Source of the DNA: a virus
Strand: one strand, 5' to 3'
IMG/VR virus record: IMGVR_UViG_3300044844_000193
Span: 1 to 27,760 of that record
Length of the DNA: 27,760 nt
Shown here: positions 5,977-14,486 of the stretch, piece by piece
How the letters are laid out: every line of letters starts with the position of its first letter
Position numbering within the stretch: the first letter of the stretch is position 1
The notes under the pieces: generated by a model
Seen by the model: the letters and a program-made list of their open reading frames with translations, nothing else
Told to the model about the DNA's origin: nothing
The model's database searches: none
Translations under genes and position numbers: made by a program

Positions 5977-6113
5977 TGTGCCTCGCCTGTGGCGACTGCA
6001 CTAGAGAACATCCCTACTCTGTAGATGACTCCATAGACTCGTTAGAGGCTACCAATCTACTGATGAGCCAGTCCACCACCGGCACAGCCACCGCGTTGCC
6101 GAGCTGTTTGTAG
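5976..6113 (+). CDS. possible Cys-rich micro-protein overlapping the methyltransferase 3' end
   Basis: Directly after the acidic gene, TGATG joins its stop to a new ATG at 5976. The 45-codon frame starts MCLACGDCTREHPYSVDDSI, which holds C2, C5, C8 and H12 in a compact metal-site pattern, then becomes featureless. About 100 bases run antisense to the end of the methyltransferase gene, where the reading may be only a shadow. The coupling and the N-terminal cysteines argue for it; the convergent overlap argues against it. Confidence 0.3.
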   Translation: MCLACGDCTREHPYSVDDSIDSLEATNLLMSQSTTGTATALPSCL

Positions 6114-6793
6114 CGATGGCTATCAGCCTGTCCCTCAGTCCATCCATCAGGGAAGCCCTGTAGTCGCTCACACTCTGTAGGAGTCAGTCGTCTGACAGTA
6201 GATGTAAATAGTGTCTGAAAGTTAGAAGTGCGCAGCGAGAACGAGGTGTCAGATACCAACGGCCCCTTACCGCCTCCAGGCTTGCCCTCTCGATCCTGTA
6301 GCACCATAGGTTCTTCCATATGCACCACTCCCATCTTGTCCATGTCTGTTCCTGATCTCAGAGTCTGCGCGATATCGCTAGTCGTCTGGTTGTAGGTATC
6401 AAATGTCTGAGCTACGAATAACTGAGCATGATGACTCTGTACTGATGGCTGATGCGCCTGTAGTGCTAGAGCTGTATCTGTAGGTGTAGCTGAGAAAGTA
6501 TCGGCCTGAGCATCCTCTCGTATCGAGTAGGCGACTGTCTCATCTTCGCCCTCCTGATAGACCATCGGCATATTGTTCCCACCTGTTCCCATACGCGCCT
6601 GTAGCGTGTTGATTTTGTCATCCTGGATGCGTATGTCATCCACTCGATTGCCATAGAAAACGATGACAGTAGCTCGTGTCTCGTGTGCGTTATCGAATAC
6701 ATTCAAGGTAGGTACTACCCCCCCCATCGCCCATGACTCGTTATCCTCAACAGTCTGAGCCCGTCTAGTCTTGACTGCCCACAGTAGGTTCAT
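6014..6793 (-). CDS. cytosine-C5 DNA methyltransferase, C-terminal part (separate frame)
   Basis: This 259-codon frame carries the target-recognition region and the last conserved motifs of a cytosine-C5 methyltransferase. These include 'VPTLNVFDNAHETRAT' near the start and, at the end, LTPTECERLQGFPDGW (motif IX) and 'YKQLGNAVAVPVV' (motif X). It has no catalytic motifs I-VIII; those are in the neighbouring frame, which ends at 6765. The frame has a TAG immediately before its ATG at 6793 and no good ribosome site there. It is therefore either the beta subunit of a two-chain enzyme, the product of frameshifting, or the tail of a broken gene. Removing one G of the GGG at 6778-6780 would fuse both frames. 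Confidence 0.85.
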   Translation of the reverse strand: MNLLWAVKTRRAQTVEDNESWAMGGVVPTLNVFDNAHETRATVIVFYGNRVDDIRIQDDKINTLQARMGTGGNNMPMVYQEGEDETVAYSIREDAQADTFSATPTDTALALQAHQPSVQSHHAQLFVAQTFDTYNQTTSDIAQTLRSGTDMDKMGVVHMEEPMVLQDREGKPGGGKGPLVSDTSFSLRTSNFQTLFTSTVRRLTPTECERLQGFPDGWTEGQADSHRYKQLGNAVAVPVVDWLISRLVASNESMESSTE

Positions 6794-7616
6794 CTATCAA
6801 CACCATCTGCATCCTGCCCTTATCAGGCATCCGTTGTTCGTTCGAGGTGGTAGTCAGAGATTGTGCCGTTGTTGATCCATCCCACCATGTCATCGTGTCA
6901 TGCGCTCGCGATGCGTTGAGTGATGGGCTCACTTCTCCGGTGGGGAAATCGTAGAGCTCGAAGTTTCCAGCCCTGCTACCTGCTCCAACGCTGTCTGTAG
7001 CTGAGTCGGTAGGGTCTTGCCCCTTCTTCCTGCTCGGCGGAGTATCCCCTGCGCTGCCTTCGGCGAGATCGAGTACTTCTGCAGGTGTTCTCCAGTCGTC
7101 TCCAGCACATCCGACAATGAAGATTCTGCGCCGTCTTTGGGGGACTCCGAAGTATTGAGCATCAAGCACACGCCACGCGATGCTATACCCCCTTTCAGCC
7201 AACGCCCCGATGACGACTCCCATATCCCTTCCTCCACTAGATGTGAGCAGACCAGGGACATTCTCAAGGATGAAATACCGCGCTTGCGTTTCATCAAGGA
7301 GTCTGCAGATTTCCCAGAAAAGTCCAGACCTAGCTCCTGCGAGCCCTGCTCGTTTCCCTGCCACAGACAAGTCTTGGCATGGAAATCCTCCAACGATGAC
7401 TCCGTTCTGCGGAGTAAATCCTGCGCTAATGAGTTGCTCACCTGATACCTCCTGGATATCACCTAGTATCTGACTGTTTGGGAACTGTTTGCGCAGTACA
7501 CCCTGCGCGTGTTTATCTATCTCGACTGATGCTACGACCTTGACCCCATTACGCTCTAGAGCTAGATCAAAGCCTCCGATACCTGCGAACAGGGATACTG
7601 CGGTCATCTGTGTCAT
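6765..7616 (-). CDS. dcm-like: cytosine-C5 DNA methyltransferase, N-terminal catalytic part
   Basis: This 283-residue frame starts after AGGAGG (4 bases before ATG) and carries, in order: SLFAGIGGFD (SAM-binding motif I, 8-17); 'GGFPCQDLSVAG' with catalytic C80 (motif IV); ENVPG (motif VI, about 118-122); and QRRRRIF (motif VIII, about 160-166). It then enters the variable region and stops at TAG 6765, before motifs IX and X, which lie in the next frame. Phage enzymes of this kind methylate phage DNA to escape host restriction. No restriction nuclease gene is adjacent. The protein alone lacks the motif that completes the SAM-binding fold, so it probably needs the downstream frame. Confidence 0.92.
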   Translation of the reverse strand: MTQMTAVSLFAGIGGFDLALERNGVKVVASVEIDKHAQGVLRKQFPNSQILGDIQEVSGEQLISAGFTPQNGVIVGGFPCQDLSVAGKRAGLAGARSGLFWEICRLLDETQARYFILENVPGLLTSSGGRDMGVVIGALAERGYSIAWRVLDAQYFGVPQRRRRIFIVGCAGDDWRTPAEVLDLAEGSAGDTPPSRKKGQDPTDSATDSVGAGSRAGNFELYDFPTGEVSPSLNASRAHDTMTWWDGSTTAQSLTTTSNEQRMPDKGRMQMVLIDEPTVGSQD

Positions 7617-10206: not shown

Positions 10207-10833
10207 TTAGGCGAGGAGTGCTACGCCTGTGATGTTGATGACTGAGGTGGCATCTAGCGTGGCTGGCTTGTTATGTGTGACAGTATCTGATCCGCCGTTG
10301 CTAGTCGGATGCCACAGATACATCTGGCTCGCGCTCGCTCCTAGTGTGGCGAATATGCTGTAGGTCGTACCGCCATCCACGAGATATCCGCTAGCAGCGA
10401 GATCGTGCGCTCGTGTAGGGATACCGGCAGGGATAGTGATGTATATCTGACCTGTGCCGAAGTTGGTGACATTGGTGAAATCTATGATGGCGTTGGCTGT
10501 AATCATTTTACCGATGCGCTGTACCTCGATAGTCACAGGGTTGCCTGTATAGACCATGTTGTTGTTCACAGTCTGCATAGTCGTAGGTAGTACAGAGATG
10601 GTCGTGCTCAGGTTGTTGTCAGCTATCTCTATGAAGGCTGTGCCATTCCAGTACTTGAGCAGGTCAGCATCGGTGTCGTAGTACATATCACCCACGCGAG
10701 GGTTCGTAGGGGTACTCGTATCAAAGTCCACATTCGGAGCTGTAAGTCTCTGCGCTGTCTCTAGTTTGCGCAGTCTCTGATCTAGGTCGGACATAATCAT
10801 GCGCAGATCGAAGGGCTGATTGATATATGCCAT
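10207..10833 (-). CDS. minor tail/fibre-like protein
   Basis: This 208-residue protein starts MAYINQPFDLRMIMSDLDQR with a short coiled coil (LRKLETAQRL), then 'VGDMYYDTDADLLKYWNGTA', a small block that recurs in phage fibre proteins. It ends in a Thr/Ser/Gly-rich beta region. The layout of coiled coil plus beta-rich head suggests a trimeric fibre or a spike at the tail tip. It follows the tail hub-like gene by 7 bases. Confidence 0.65.
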   Translation of the reverse strand: MAYINQPFDLRMIMSDLDQRLRKLETAQRLTAPNVDFDTSTPTNPRVGDMYYDTDADLLKYWNGTAFIEIADNNLSTTISVLPTTMQTVNNNMVYTGNPVTIEVQRIGKMITANAIIDFTNVTNFGTGQIYITIPAGIPTRAHDLAASGYLVDGGTTYSIFATLGASASQMYLWHPTSNGGSDTVTHNKPATLDATSVINITGVALLA

Positions 10834-10839
10834 GTGTCC

Positions 10840-11937
10840 TCAGTTCGTAGTCGTAGTCAGGGTCAGGGTCACGCGCTCTGGCCCATCCTCGCCTGGCTGT
10901 ACCGAGAGTCCGACTATGCGGTAGATAGCATCTAGTGTCCCAGGGAATCGCTCATCCTGGATGACGAGTCGAGCATCATCGCCGATGGCATAGTCACCTA
11001 GCTCAGGTGTGGCATATGCCGGTACGACTACCTTGATGGTCGTAGGCGGATATGCGACTGCGAGTACCTGACCGGTAGCGAGCTCCTGTAGGTAGGTCGC
11101 ATCGGTGACATCTGAGTAGTTGGCCTGTTCCTCTAGCAACGGCCACCCATCTGCCAGGAGGACTGCATCCTGCGCAGTCTCTATCAGCTTGCCCTCGTTC
11201 GATCCTGCACCAAGCGCATAGACAGTATTGGCTGCTATAGCTCCATCCTCAGGATACTCATACTCCACGATGTTCCCTGCAGGGAACTCAAAGACGAGAG
11301 CCTCAGGGTCAGTCGGATCATAGACAGTACCTGTACGCGGATAGCCGAGTATCAGAGTCTTGAGTGGCTCATTTGTGATGGGGTCATAGGACACCTGGAT
11401 GTTGAAATCAAAGCCATCCTCACCCCTAGATAGGTCTTGGATAGCGTTATAGACACCCTTGAGCTCGTAGTCGTAGTAGGTGCGAGAGAGCAGTACGCCT
11501 GATGTTTCTGATCCTACGATGACTCCGATATCGCCCTCCGGTGGAGTCTGCGCGGTATTCATAATGGTGCGAGCTATGAGTAGCTGGTCTATGTTGGTGA
11601 AATCTATAGTGGTGGTGATGCGCCTACGCTCGAAGTAGGACTCAAACTCTCTAGCCACTAGGTTGAGAGTCTGATCCGCGCTGTTATATGTGCGCCCCCA
11701 GATGACTCCGCCCCATATCAGGATGCCGTTTCGATCTACATAGAGACCGGTGCGACCAGGGATAGTCGAGGCATTGACATTGAAGTCTGCAGTAGCCATA
11801 CCTGAGAGTAGGAGATGACCCTGTAGTGCTCCAGCCTGATTGAGCTGTTGGGTGAACGAGACTCCTGTGAGAGGTAGCTCCGCGAGGATGTCATTCGTCA
11901 GTAAATCGGCAAACAGATACCGATAGGTAGTAGTCAT
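10840..11937 (-). CDS. minor tail protein (tail hub/baseplate type)
   Basis: This 365-residue protein starts MTTTYRYLFADLLTNDILAE and has 'GLYVDRNGILIWGGVIWGRT' at about 80-100. This pattern is typical of actinophage minor tail proteins related to the Gp37-like hub of phage ReqiPepy6. It is rich in beta strands, with no peptidase motif seen. Its placement after the fibre genes instead of straight after the distal tail protein suggests that the fibre cluster was inserted between the distal tail and hub genes. Confidence 0.75.
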   Translation of the reverse strand: MTTTYRYLFADLLTNDILAELPLTGVSFTQQLNQAGALQGHLLLSGMATADFNVNASTIPGRTGLYVDRNGILIWGGVIWGRTYNSADQTLNLVAREFESYFERRRITTTIDFTNIDQLLIARTIMNTAQTPPEGDIGVIVGSETSGVLLSRTYYDYELKGVYNAIQDLSRGEDGFDFNIQVSYDPITNEPLKTLILGYPRTGTVYDPTDPEALVFEFPAGNIVEYEYPEDGAIAANTVYALGAGSNEGKLIETAQDAVLLADGWPLLEEQANYSDVTDATYLQELATGQVLAVAYPPTTIKVVVPAYATPELGDYAIGDDARLVIQDERFPGTLDAIYRIVGLSVQPGEDGPERVTLTLTTTTN

Positions 11938-11946
11938 TGGCTTTCC

Positions 11947-12675
11947 TTATTTATATTCTTTTTTAATCCAAAAAAATGTTTTGTAACTGTCAAAAAATCT
12001 AGTTCTTAATTTAGCCGTAATTTTATTTACAGAAGTTATATCTTTTTGTTTTCCTGCGACTCCTGACCATTTCTCTCTTTTGAAAGGAATGACTTGCGCC
12101 ATAGGTGTACCAACAGGAATTAAACCTTCAAAGTCAGGATCTTTAATTACAAATGGAAAATTAACTGCTGCGCTATAAGTATCGGTATCTACTACCCCTT
12201 CTAGTATAGTAAATATCGACTCTCTGTGAAATGGCTGAACAAATAAAGACGAATAACCTTTAGGGGTTTTAATAGCCCAAGGATTTATAAATTTAGGATA
12301 AGCATAGGGTTTTTTATTCGGGTGCATAGGTGCTTGCTCTATTGGGTGGAACTCTATTAAAGAATAATTTGACCACTCAAAATATTGCGTTTTTATTCCT
12401 TCTATTTCTTTGATGGAGACCCAAATATCTGCCGGAGTAGTAATTATGTATCCAGCCGTAAGAGCGTCAAAAACAGGCATACACTTTTTTATTGTCGCAT
12501 CAGTTTTGCCAGCACCTACGGGTCTTTTTTCTTTGTTTATGTAAGAGTCCATTTGTTTATACCAATCCGGTATAAACTTAGAAGCCGGTTGCGGCAACTC
12601 TAAATTAGATTGAGTAGTATCAATAAATATTATTTTATTGTTCAACCCAATTTTTAATTTCTTCATCCCAAACAT
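11947..12675 (-). CDS. conserved phage protein of the AT-rich cassette
   Basis: This 242-residue protein starts with ATG at 12675, served by GAAGGATATT just before it; M4 is an alternative. It shows FIPDWYKQMDSY, 'KKCMPVFDALTAGYIITTPA', NPWAIKTPKGYSSLF, and 'GTPMAQVIPFKREKW'. I associate this pattern with a family of unknown function found in marine tailed phages, though I am not sure of its formal name. The coding is plainly AT-rich (AAA, TTT, TTA, ATA codons), unlike flanking genes. It overlaps the end of the 117-residue gene by 41 bases in another frame. A structural or host-surface role is possible; nothing catalytic is recognised. Confidence 0.75.
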   Translation of the reverse strand: MFGMKKLKIGLNNKIIFIDTTQSNLELPQPASKFIPDWYKQMDSYINKEKRPVGAGKTDATIKKCMPVFDALTAGYIITTPADIWVSIKEIEGIKTQYFEWSNYSLIEFHPIEQAPMHPNKKPYAYPKFINPWAIKTPKGYSSLFVQPFHRESIFTILEGVVDTDTYSAAVNFPFVIKDPDFEGLIPVGTPMAQVIPFKREKWSGVAGKQKDITSVNKITAKLRTRFFDSYKTFFWIKKEYK

Positions 12676-12988
12676 AATATCCTTCCGTAGGCATAGGCAC
12701 AGGTGCTTGCCAACGCCATACTATCTCATCAAAAAGCCAACTAGGAAATGGCTTCACAGGAATAAACACATCTTTTGTAGGATCGTAAAAAAACCCAGTT
12801 CCAGCGTAACATTTTCTAATACGCGAATTGTAAGAAGTTTGTATCCAGCGACCACCGAAATGAGCTACTAAAAAATCTATACCTTTTTGCGGTTGCTCTA
12901 CGCCGTTTTCATCTAACAGTTCGTTGTTATTAACAACAAGGACTCTTTTAACAATAGAATGTTCATCTAACTCTGCAAAATGAGCCAT
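12635..12988 (-). CDS. conserved phage protein of fibre regions (MAHFAxLDE type)
   Basis: The ATG at 12988 overlaps the stop of the glycine-rich gene (TAATG), which sets the start and gives 117 residues. MAHFAELDEHSIVKRVLVVN, then 'WIQTSYNSRIRKCYAGTG', FFYDPTKDVFIPVKPFPSW and YYVWDEEIKNWVE form a pattern often seen beside tail fibre genes in cyanophages and other aquatic phages. The role is unknown; possibilities are a fibre chaperone or a capsid/tail decoration. It shares the AT-rich base use of its neighbours. Confidence 0.8.
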   Translation of the reverse strand: MAHFAELDEHSIVKRVLVVNNNELLDENGVEQPQKGIDFLVAHFGGRWIQTSYNSRIRKCYAGTGFFYDPTKDVFIPVKPFPSWLFDEIVWRWQAPVPMPTEGYYVWDEEIKNWVEQ

Positions 12989-13836
12989 TATGGGGCCACG
13001 CTTCCTGATCCTGTCCAAGCATAATAATAATATCCGCCTGAATTAACTGTGTTTGGAGAACCTGTCGTAGTTAAAGTGCTTGTTGAACGAACGATACATA
13101 GTCCAGAACCACCACCTCGCCCGTCACAACCGCCACCGCCACCGCTTCCGGTGCTTGCAACTCCTGCGTTTCCACCAGCGTTGCTGTTGCGGTTAGAGGC
13201 GTTTCCGCCACCGCCAGCACCGCCATTTCCCGGTCCGCTAGCAAGTCCTGGGTCACGACTTCCGCCACCGCCACCGCCAATAACTCCATTAGCCGTAACC
13301 GCACTTTGGAAATCGCCACTTAAAGTATTTTTAATAGCGTTAATCCAAGCTGCGTAAGTGGTAAATCCGTCACCGCCGTTTCCAGAGTTTGGACCACCAG
13401 CATTGCCAGCCGCACCTAAGCCACCGCCACCAGCAGATGCGTAGTTGGCAACATTGTAAGCACCACCCGGATTGCCGTAGCGCAAAGTACCGCCTGTGCC
13501 TTGATTGGCCGTTCCGCCGTCACCAATAGAAGGTCCTGCTCTACCTGAAGCAGAACCACCATTAACAGGTGCGCTACCTTCGCCGCCGCCAACTCCGCCG
13601 CCGTCCGCAATTATCGTGTTACCAAAATTGGAAGCCGTGCCCGAATTGTTAGCACCGCCACCCCCACCAACCGCTAAGTTGATTGTAGAAGATATATTCA
13701 AACTATGATAAACCGCACCGCCTGAGCCGCCGCCAGCCGCGTTACCGCCCTGACCGCCACCACCGCCGCCAATAATTAACACTTCTATGGCTTTAGCGGC
13801 TAATTTAGAAGAAGCAATAGTTCCAAGAATAGGCAT
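12988..13836 (-). CDS. glycine-rich tail adhesin
   Basis: The ATG at 13836 (MPILGTIASSKLAAKAIEVL) overlaps the preceding stop in TAATG and has GGAGAT upstream, giving 282 residues. After a short anchor the protein has many glycine runs (IIGGGGGGQGG, NLAVGGGGGANN, GVIGGGGGGSRD, 'STGSGGGGGCDGRGGGSG'), then ends in a beta region (STSTLTTTGSPNTVNSGGYY). Polyglycine bundles joined by variable loops are the receptor-binding fold of T2/S16-type gp38 adhesins, and similar proteins occur at fibre tips of aquatic phages. The loops between glycine runs probably set host range. Confidence 0.82.
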   Translation of the reverse strand: MPILGTIASSKLAAKAIEVLIIGGGGGGQGGNAAGGGSGGAVYHSLNISSTINLAVGGGGGANNSGTASNFGNTIIADGGGVGGGEGSAPVNGGSASGRAGPSIGDGGTANQGTGGTLRYGNPGGAYNVANYASAGGGGLGAAGNAGGPNSGNGGDGFTTYAAWINAIKNTLSGDFQSAVTANGVIGGGGGGSRDPGLASGPGNGGAGGGGNASNRNSNAGGNAGVASTGSGGGGGCDGRGGGSGLCIVRSTSTLTTTGSPNTVNSGGYYYYAWTGSGSVAP

Positions 13837-14486
13837 TAGGCAATATCTCCTACTACATACCACAGATCGGTACTTGCCTTGATACAAGTAGCTGATGAAA
13901 ACTGTGCTCGAAGTTTAGGTGCGGCTGATGTAGCTCCAGTACTAGATACTGTAGTAGTACCTGATGTCACAGCATTTATAGTGACCTGACCTGCGCCGAT
14001 TTGGATGATGTTGATCTGTGTGCCGATTGGATATGCCACAGATGCGTTTGTAGGGATCGAGTATGTCTGTGCCGATGCATTTGATGCTGTCACGAGTTTG
14101 CCGTTATCAGCGAGCACAAATGTATAGGTAGTACCTGTCTGCGCGTTTAGCGAGAGGTTGATGAGAGGTGCGTTGAGCGTTGGGCTCGTCAGCGTTTTGT
14201 TTGTGAGAGTCTGCGCTGTAGTCAGATCGACTGTAGTAGCTGTGTCGATTGCGATAGTGCCTGAGCCTGTGATAGTGCCACCGGATAGACCTGTGCCAGC
14301 CGTGATAGATGTGACTGTGCCTGATGCTTTATATCCGAGCGAGTTCCATGCTGTTGATCCATCGCCAATCTTGAACTTGCCTGTGTCTGACTCATATCCA
14401 AACTCACCTGCGGCTAGTGTCGGATTAGCCGATGTCCATTGAGCAGCCGTACCTCTGCGTATCTGTATCTGTGTGACGACTGCCAT
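13836..14486 (-). CDS. tail fibre protein with Mtd-like N-terminal domain
   Basis: The first about 52 residues (QIQIRRGTAAQWTSANPTLA, then 'GEFGYESDTGKFKIGDGSTA') match the N-terminal domain of the major tropism determinant, which anchors receptor-binding proteins to the tail tip. A repeat-rich middle has GTGLSGGTITGSGTI and 'LTNKTLTSPTLNAPLINL'. The last about 100 residues form a beta domain, NAQTGTTYTFVLADNGKL..., that is also present in the 346-residue neighbour. No reverse transcriptase or template repeat is visible in the window, so diversity-generating retroelement activity is not supported. Confidence 0.8.
   Translation of the reverse strand: MAVVTQIQIRRGTAAQWTSANPTLAAGEFGYESDTGKFKIGDGSTAWNSLGYKASGTVTSITAGTGLSGGTITGSGTIAIDTATTVDLTTAQTLTNKTLTSPTLNAPLINLSLNAQTGTTYTFVLADNGKLVTASNASAQTYSIPTNASVAYPIGTQINIIQIGAGQVTINAVTSGTTTVSSTGATSAAPKLRAQFSSATCIKASTDLWYVVGDIA

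Follow-up and report, generated by a model that had tools for sequence, protein, structure and literature searches.

A slot for exchangeable, putative adhesin cassettes between two tail genes of a siphovirus-like phage

Phages that are otherwise close relatives differ in the adhesin cassette that lies between a fibre-like gene with an Mtd_N domain and a gene for a hub-like minor tail protein, and the closest relative of the cassette analysed here belongs to another phage lineage. It appears that these phages alter the part that recognises the host by exchanging a single gene block. The window, by which we mean the whole analysed stretch of 27,760 nucleotides (positions 1 to 27,760 of IMG/VR virus record IMGVR_UViG_3300044844_000193), contains one such cassette of three genes (Table 1). 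We consider it quite likely that the region as a whole serves host recognition as a slot for exchangeable cassettes, consisting of the joints, a docking leader, a glycine-rich binder, its partner of 117 residues and an optional accessory protein of 242 residues.

Table 1. Position of the cassette, its joints and its flanking genes in the window
Feature	Positions	Strand	Basis or remark
Left flank: 216-aa fibre-like protein, Mtd_N domain	13836..14486	-	PF18454, E 1.6e-16
Left joint: last 10 codons of Mtd_N gene and leader codons 1-10	13807..13867	-	codon identity
Leader MPILGTIASSK: first 11 adhesin codons	13804..13836	-	common to unrelated folds; homology ends just after
Glycine-rich adhesin gene, 282 aa, 32% glycine	12988..13836	-	first in cassette
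117-aa protein, phrog_7759	12635..12988	-	PHROG E 2.3e-38; AlphaFold pLDDT 93.6
242-aa protein, phrog_7084, predicted dUTPase-like fold	11947..12675	-	PHROG E 1.8e-54; pLDDT 93.7
Right joint: first 12 codons of 365-aa gene	11902..11937	-	codon identity and sibling alignments
Right flank: 365-aa hub-like minor tail protein, phrog_1885	10840..11937	-	E 2.2e-66

The genes around the slot are arranged as in the tail module of a siphovirus, namely tape measure, Dit, fibre genes, cassette, hub-like gene, fibre gene and endolysin. The phage is probably siphovirus-like and its host an actinobacterium; relatives of the 365-aa protein occur in Arthrobacter and Streptomyces phages. In the direction of transcription, the Mtd_N gene lies upstream of the cassette and the minor tail gene downstream. 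The three open reading frames that the first-pass annotation had placed between an Mtd-like fibre gene and a hub-like minor tail gene are found there, all on the minus strand, and their starts and stops overlap. Elsewhere in the tail module, a 208-aa fibre-like gene (10207-10833) contains a second variable segment: its C-terminal part (10214-10604) is non-homologous in two relatives (L083 and L089), with both sides aligning.

With the 365-aa gene as query we gathered 80 related loci. One of them, L082, shares 99.8% identity over 10.8 kb and also the cassette. In four others (L083, L084, L087 and L089) the flanks align at 80-93% DNA identity on both sides and nothing between the edges aligns; the same two genes enclose unrelated cassettes of 1.8-2.3 kb. 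Contents of the sibling slots are either beta-sandwich-type proteins accompanied by a protein of 78-99 residues, or a glycine-rich protein of 593 residues accompanied by proteins of 61 and 114 residues. The slot is occupied in 52 of the 52 loci that have both borders. Because it is never empty and siblings carry other cassettes, we regard the event as a replacement, and the original idea of a cassette inserted into the fibre cluster has to be abandoned. Outside L082, the closest match of the cassette lies in locus L003, as a single alignment with 72.5% DNA identity that spans window positions 11942-13785 and includes all three genes. The backbone of L003 has different tail-fibre and connector genes and is devoid of the hub gene. 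Flank and cassette therefore differ in their nearest relatives, which are the siblings for the former and L003 for the latter. Adhesin, small gene and 242-aa gene recur in this order across many backbones. The locus thus behaves as an exchangeable module in that close relatives have different content with sharp borders at the same place, and in that an unrelated backbone contains these three genes in identical order. Horizontal gain of the module, as first proposed, is supported by L003 together with the sibling flanks that enclose other cassettes; vertical inheritance in all close relatives is contradicted by those that are without the three genes.

The borders had been expected as clean edges near 11940 and 13840. 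They are sharp, and the right one (11937-11945) lies where it was predicted. Since homology to the siblings ends at about 13785-13822, the left one is situated inside the glycine-rich gene and not at 13836. The cassette therefore does not begin with the start of this gene, as had been assumed, and the first 10-11 codons belong to the backbone side.

These 10-11 residues, the leader, stay with the backbone while the remaining adhesin is swapped. In most slots preceded by an Mtd_N gene, the first protein opens with the leader, whatever fold follows; judged from sequence, the folds behind it include polyglycine, beta-sandwich, FN3-like and other types. The leader takes the form MPILGxIASS or related ones such as MSPILGSRGxSPRGYGFAG. 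A set selected by pattern (L321-L400) serves to illustrate the folds behind the leader and not as statistical evidence. In phages lacking the hub gene, a loose leader-like start is present in 21 of 137 glycine-rich ORFs vs 3 of 1101 others (p 3e-18, a descriptive value, as the regular expression was written after examples had been seen). A tblastn search of the phage collection with the leader region of 25 residues gave no match, the query being too short, and a literature search for the leader string found no paper. We suggest that the leader probably serves to dock the adhesin at the tail tip.

The adhesin itself matches phrog_2295 (E 2.6e-14) and, under the curated cut-off of 24.3 bits, Gly_rich_2 (PF21722; E 3.6e-4, 21.0 bits). 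Its glycine-rich body probably folds as a glycine-rich sandwich that is responsible for receptor binding. By analogy with glycine-rich adhesins elsewhere (PMC8651126, PMC9608196), the protein most likely binds the host and may determine host range. Of the initial notion of a host-range module with the polyglycine adhesin as its receptor-binding part, the exchange is supported by the compared loci, and the host-range role is a putative one drawn from this analogy.

The protein of 117 residues matches phrog_7759 over its full length (positions 1-120 of 125). Among the 52 slots, phrog_7759 is present in 27 of 30 glycine-rich cassettes and in 0 of 22 others, and a protein of about 78 residues in exactly the 19 slots with the sandwich-type family, although some of these loci are near-duplicates and the effective number is therefore lower. 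In phage loci collected with the 117-aa gene, this gene directly follows a glycine-rich one in 35 of 63 cases. Pfam gave no match up to E 0.1, a sequence search of solved structures no assignment, and a fold search of the PDB with the AlphaFold model no match under E 1; significant matches of the model in a viral model library are all uncharacterised phage proteins. With Tfa/gp25-type chaperones the protein shares adjacency to the fibre and co-segregation with it, but not similarity. We presume that it is probably a cognate assembly partner of glycine-rich adhesins, be it a chaperone or a tip component; as its fold has no significant match in the PDB, the word chaperone refers to association only. 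A protein of about 200 residues resembling 2OG-Fe(II) oxygenases is often encoded between glycine-rich and phrog_7759 genes (L181, L186, L197, L210, L213, L221, L226), and one phage record with a phrog_7759 relative carries a 2OG-Fe(II) oxygenase annotation.

The third protein, of 242 residues, matches phrog_7084 over its full length (positions 6-238 of 240) and belongs to a conserved family, in which D163, T190 and Q194 are invariant (72 sequences). Its predicted model has the overall fold of dUTPases (Foldseek probability 1.00, best E 2e-4, with a target-normalised TM of only about 0.6). A sequence search of solved structures gave chance-level matches only. DUF6065 (PF19541), for which a literature search found no paper, is matched by 28 of the 72 relatives at E up to 1 (best 1.9e-8) and by the window protein with 13.1 bits, under the curated cut-off of 26.6. 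As for genomic context, a gene with at least 20% glycine lies within two genes upstream in 39 of 59 nonredundant loci and a small gene directly upstream in 44 of 59. We suggest that the protein is probably an accessory of the adhesin module and not a dUTPase, which is the weakest step of our interpretation; that of a trimeric accessory or assembly protein seems the likeliest role, ahead of a working dUTPase. Often the gene is present in more than one copy, with two or three divergent versions that mostly stand in tandem (L009, L027, L033, L038, L051, L055, L056, L060, L068, L112).

The neighbourhoods of the family also allow for another function, namely that the protein helps to modify or tune the fibre or the host surface together with enzymes encoded nearby. 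In three phage loci (L068, L069 and L078) a relative adjoins a flavin-dependent tryptophan halogenase gene, identified by PF04820 in L069 and L078 (E 1e-103 or better) and by near-identical sequence in L068; a sulfotransferase and a glycosyltransferase are also encoded next to relatives in other phages. Nevertheless, the window's cassette contains no such enzyme and most relatives are partnered by an adhesin, so we find this role rather unlikely. Chromosomal relatives with 31-42% identity are common in alphaproteobacteria (L242-L320, mostly Rhizobiales and Rhodobacter), where they are often located near apparent ECF sigma and anti-sigma genes. The halogenase-neighbour loci and the chromosomal relatives in Rhizobiales mean that the family is not adhesin-specific.

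An active nucleotide enzyme of the dUTPase or dCTP deaminase type, riding in the fibre slot as an auxiliary metabolic gene, would explain the predicted fold, the invariant residues and the resemblance of GIVDTD and GTPIAQ to motifs 3 and 4. The latter two align with GTIDSD and RIAQ of true dUTPases, of which 14 from bacterial genomes served as motif reference, with a weak profile score (E 0.016, probability 2.8%). Inspection of the alignments by eye, however, found the family to be without the Asp of motif 1 (AGYII vs AGLDL), PRSG of motif 2 and RG.GGFGSTG of motif 5, so that residues of the canonical motifs 1, 2 and 5 which are invariant in the 14 reference dUTPases are missing. Moreover, no more than 4 of the 72 members touch the Pfam dUTPase model (PF00692; best E 0.014), and the gene accompanies adhesins in most loci. 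We hold such an enzyme to be quite unlikely and retain the accessory role.

Base composition had been the original hint of a foreign origin. GC content of the window falls to 0.366 at 12001-13000 vs about 0.50 elsewhere. When the codon use of each gene is compared with that of the other 35 window genes, amino acids held fixed, the three cassette genes are the most extreme in the window (z -10.2 for the 242-aa gene, -7.1 for the 117-aa gene and -6.4 for the glycine-rich gene), followed by a C5 methylase (z -5.6). Their GC3 amounts to 0.26, 0.26 and 0.36, respectively, vs 0.50. The scan along the window thus finds their codon use distinct from that of their neighbours, and the asserted preference for A and T in all three holds for codon choice; in the glycine-rich gene it is confined to third positions, its overall GC being 0.54 owing to glycine codons. 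The C5 cytosine methylase (6014-7616) is split over two overlapping ORFs, of which 6765-7616 encodes the N-terminal part of PF00145 and 6014-6793 its C-terminal part; it is the first ORF (6765-7616) that has the unusual codon use.

We rejected low GC as a sign of a recent AT-rich donor. Members of the 242-aa family have a mean GC of 0.33 vs 0.41 for their backbones, and 95% of 63 genes lie below their own backbone; for example, the 242- and 117-aa genes of L003 have GC of 0.33-0.34 vs 0.435 in the flanks. As the family is AT-rich almost everywhere, low GC alone is no proof of recent transfer; it is the mark of a circulating gene pool rather than of a single recent donor. The same fact lends some support to an ancestral origin of the three genes, with loss or replacement in the sister phages and with odd codon use resulting from selection and not from transfer, since composition is then no clean sign of import. 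However, the closest relative of the whole cassette belongs to a different backbone, and the phages most closely related in the flanks carry other cassettes. We therefore judge ancestry of the three genes to be very unlikely, and the slot is exchanged under either direction.

Hints about the way of exchange come from the joints. On the left side, siblings remain homologous beyond the Mtd_N stop codon and for another 5-16 codons at the beginning of the adhesin gene; on the right side, homology starts again with the ATG of the 365-aa gene. The ribosome-binding site of the latter gene belongs to the cassette side and differs between siblings. As a measure of conservation we used codon identity among distant siblings at positions with the same residue. 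For the Mtd_N gene it reaches 0.91-0.96 over the final five codons and 0.68-0.69 over the preceding five, and for leader codons 2-10 it is 0.58-1.00 per codon, vs about 0.2-0.5 inside genes. Two other gene ends that contain the start site of the following gene, those of the 346- and 85-aa genes, served as controls and have 0.66 and 0.56. In the 365-aa gene, codons 1-12 display a smaller rise than the left side (0.43-0.57 vs 0.25-0.35 in the rest of the gene). Conservation of the left joint could be partly due to the ribosome-binding site that the end of the Mtd_N gene contains. The pattern suggests that cassettes may be exchanged via homologous recombination through short shared joints. That a site-specific recombinase or invertase acts on repeats at the slot edges, as the invertible adhesin genes of haloarchaeal viruses such as phiCh1 (PMC8651126) might lead one to think, is hardly credible, given that no convincing repeat is common to both joints (the best direct pair across the slot is 28 nt at 71%, and the only inverted pair, 18 nt at 78%, lies inside the cassette) and that the window holds no alternative cassette copies.

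A possible model of cassette exchange by homologous recombination would then be as follows. The two joints, that is, the end of the Mtd_N gene with the leader codons on one side and the start of the minor tail gene on the other, would recombine homologously. The incoming adhesin would keep the leader of the backbone and dock by it to the tail tip, whereupon its glycine-rich body would bind the receptor. The cognate partner of 117 residues would travel with the glycine-rich adhesin and aid its assembly, and the dUTPase-fold protein of 242 residues might join as an optional third member with an accessory or assembly role. A much broader version of the model is also imaginable, in which the leader, of 10-20 residues, is a portable docking tag that accepts unrelated folds across lineages, with cassettes bringing partners specific to each fold. 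One of these would be a trimeric protein of dUTPase fold, taken from nucleotide chemistry into the assembly or function of the adhesin. This extension we put forward as doubtful.

If our assumptions are true, the slot offers a precise and testable anatomy of host change for uncultured aquatic phages, in which a single slot with two joints and a constant leader receives adhesins together with their own partners. The leader would then be a handle for finding adhesins in uncultured phages, and the partner rule would predict the area of function of PHROG families 7759 and 7084, both of which are widespread and of unknown function.

That phages exchange host-recognition genes as modules is well established (PMC10579305, PMC7468147, PMC7029224), and glycine-rich adhesins are known determinants of host range (PMC8651126, PMC9608196). 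The distantly related Alteromonas phages A5, V22 and P24 have common host recognition modules, in which, as in our case, a fibre and its small cognate chaperone gene move together, there between morphologically different phages (PMC10579305). The text of that paper does not mention glycine or call the fibre glycine-rich, and its chaperone consists of alpha-helices and bears beta-hairpin tentacles (PMC10579305); unlike these modules, the window's slot keeps a short N-terminal leader and swaps the rest among close siblings. In haloarchaeal viruses, a glycine-rich adhesin and a small gene following it are part of a region which is hypervariable and tracks host range (PMC8651126). This arrangement of Hafunaviridae (HF2, HCTV and relatives) resembles that of the cassette, and in HF2 a relative of the 242-aa gene even adjoins the hypervariable adhesin locus. 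It is, however, on the opposite strand and convergent to that locus, the small gene cannot be recognised as phrog_7759, and the leader is missing from the adhesin. Cyanophage Pam3 provides another parallel, as the glycine-rich distal domain of its fibre binds the host and a small assembly partner adjoins (gp24/gp25; PMC9608196), although the fold of the 117-aa protein does not match the Pam3 fibre complex significantly (probability 0.18). Finally, metagenomic islands and phage pan-genomes likewise comprise near-identical genomes with abrupt differences in host-recognition genes (PMC7468147, PMC7029224); those reports describe variable regions in general, whereas here the joints, the leader and the partner rule are resolved. 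Within the literature searched, the leader-anchored slot with resolved joints, the phrog_7759 partner rule and the predicted dUTPase-like fold of phrog_7084 are new.
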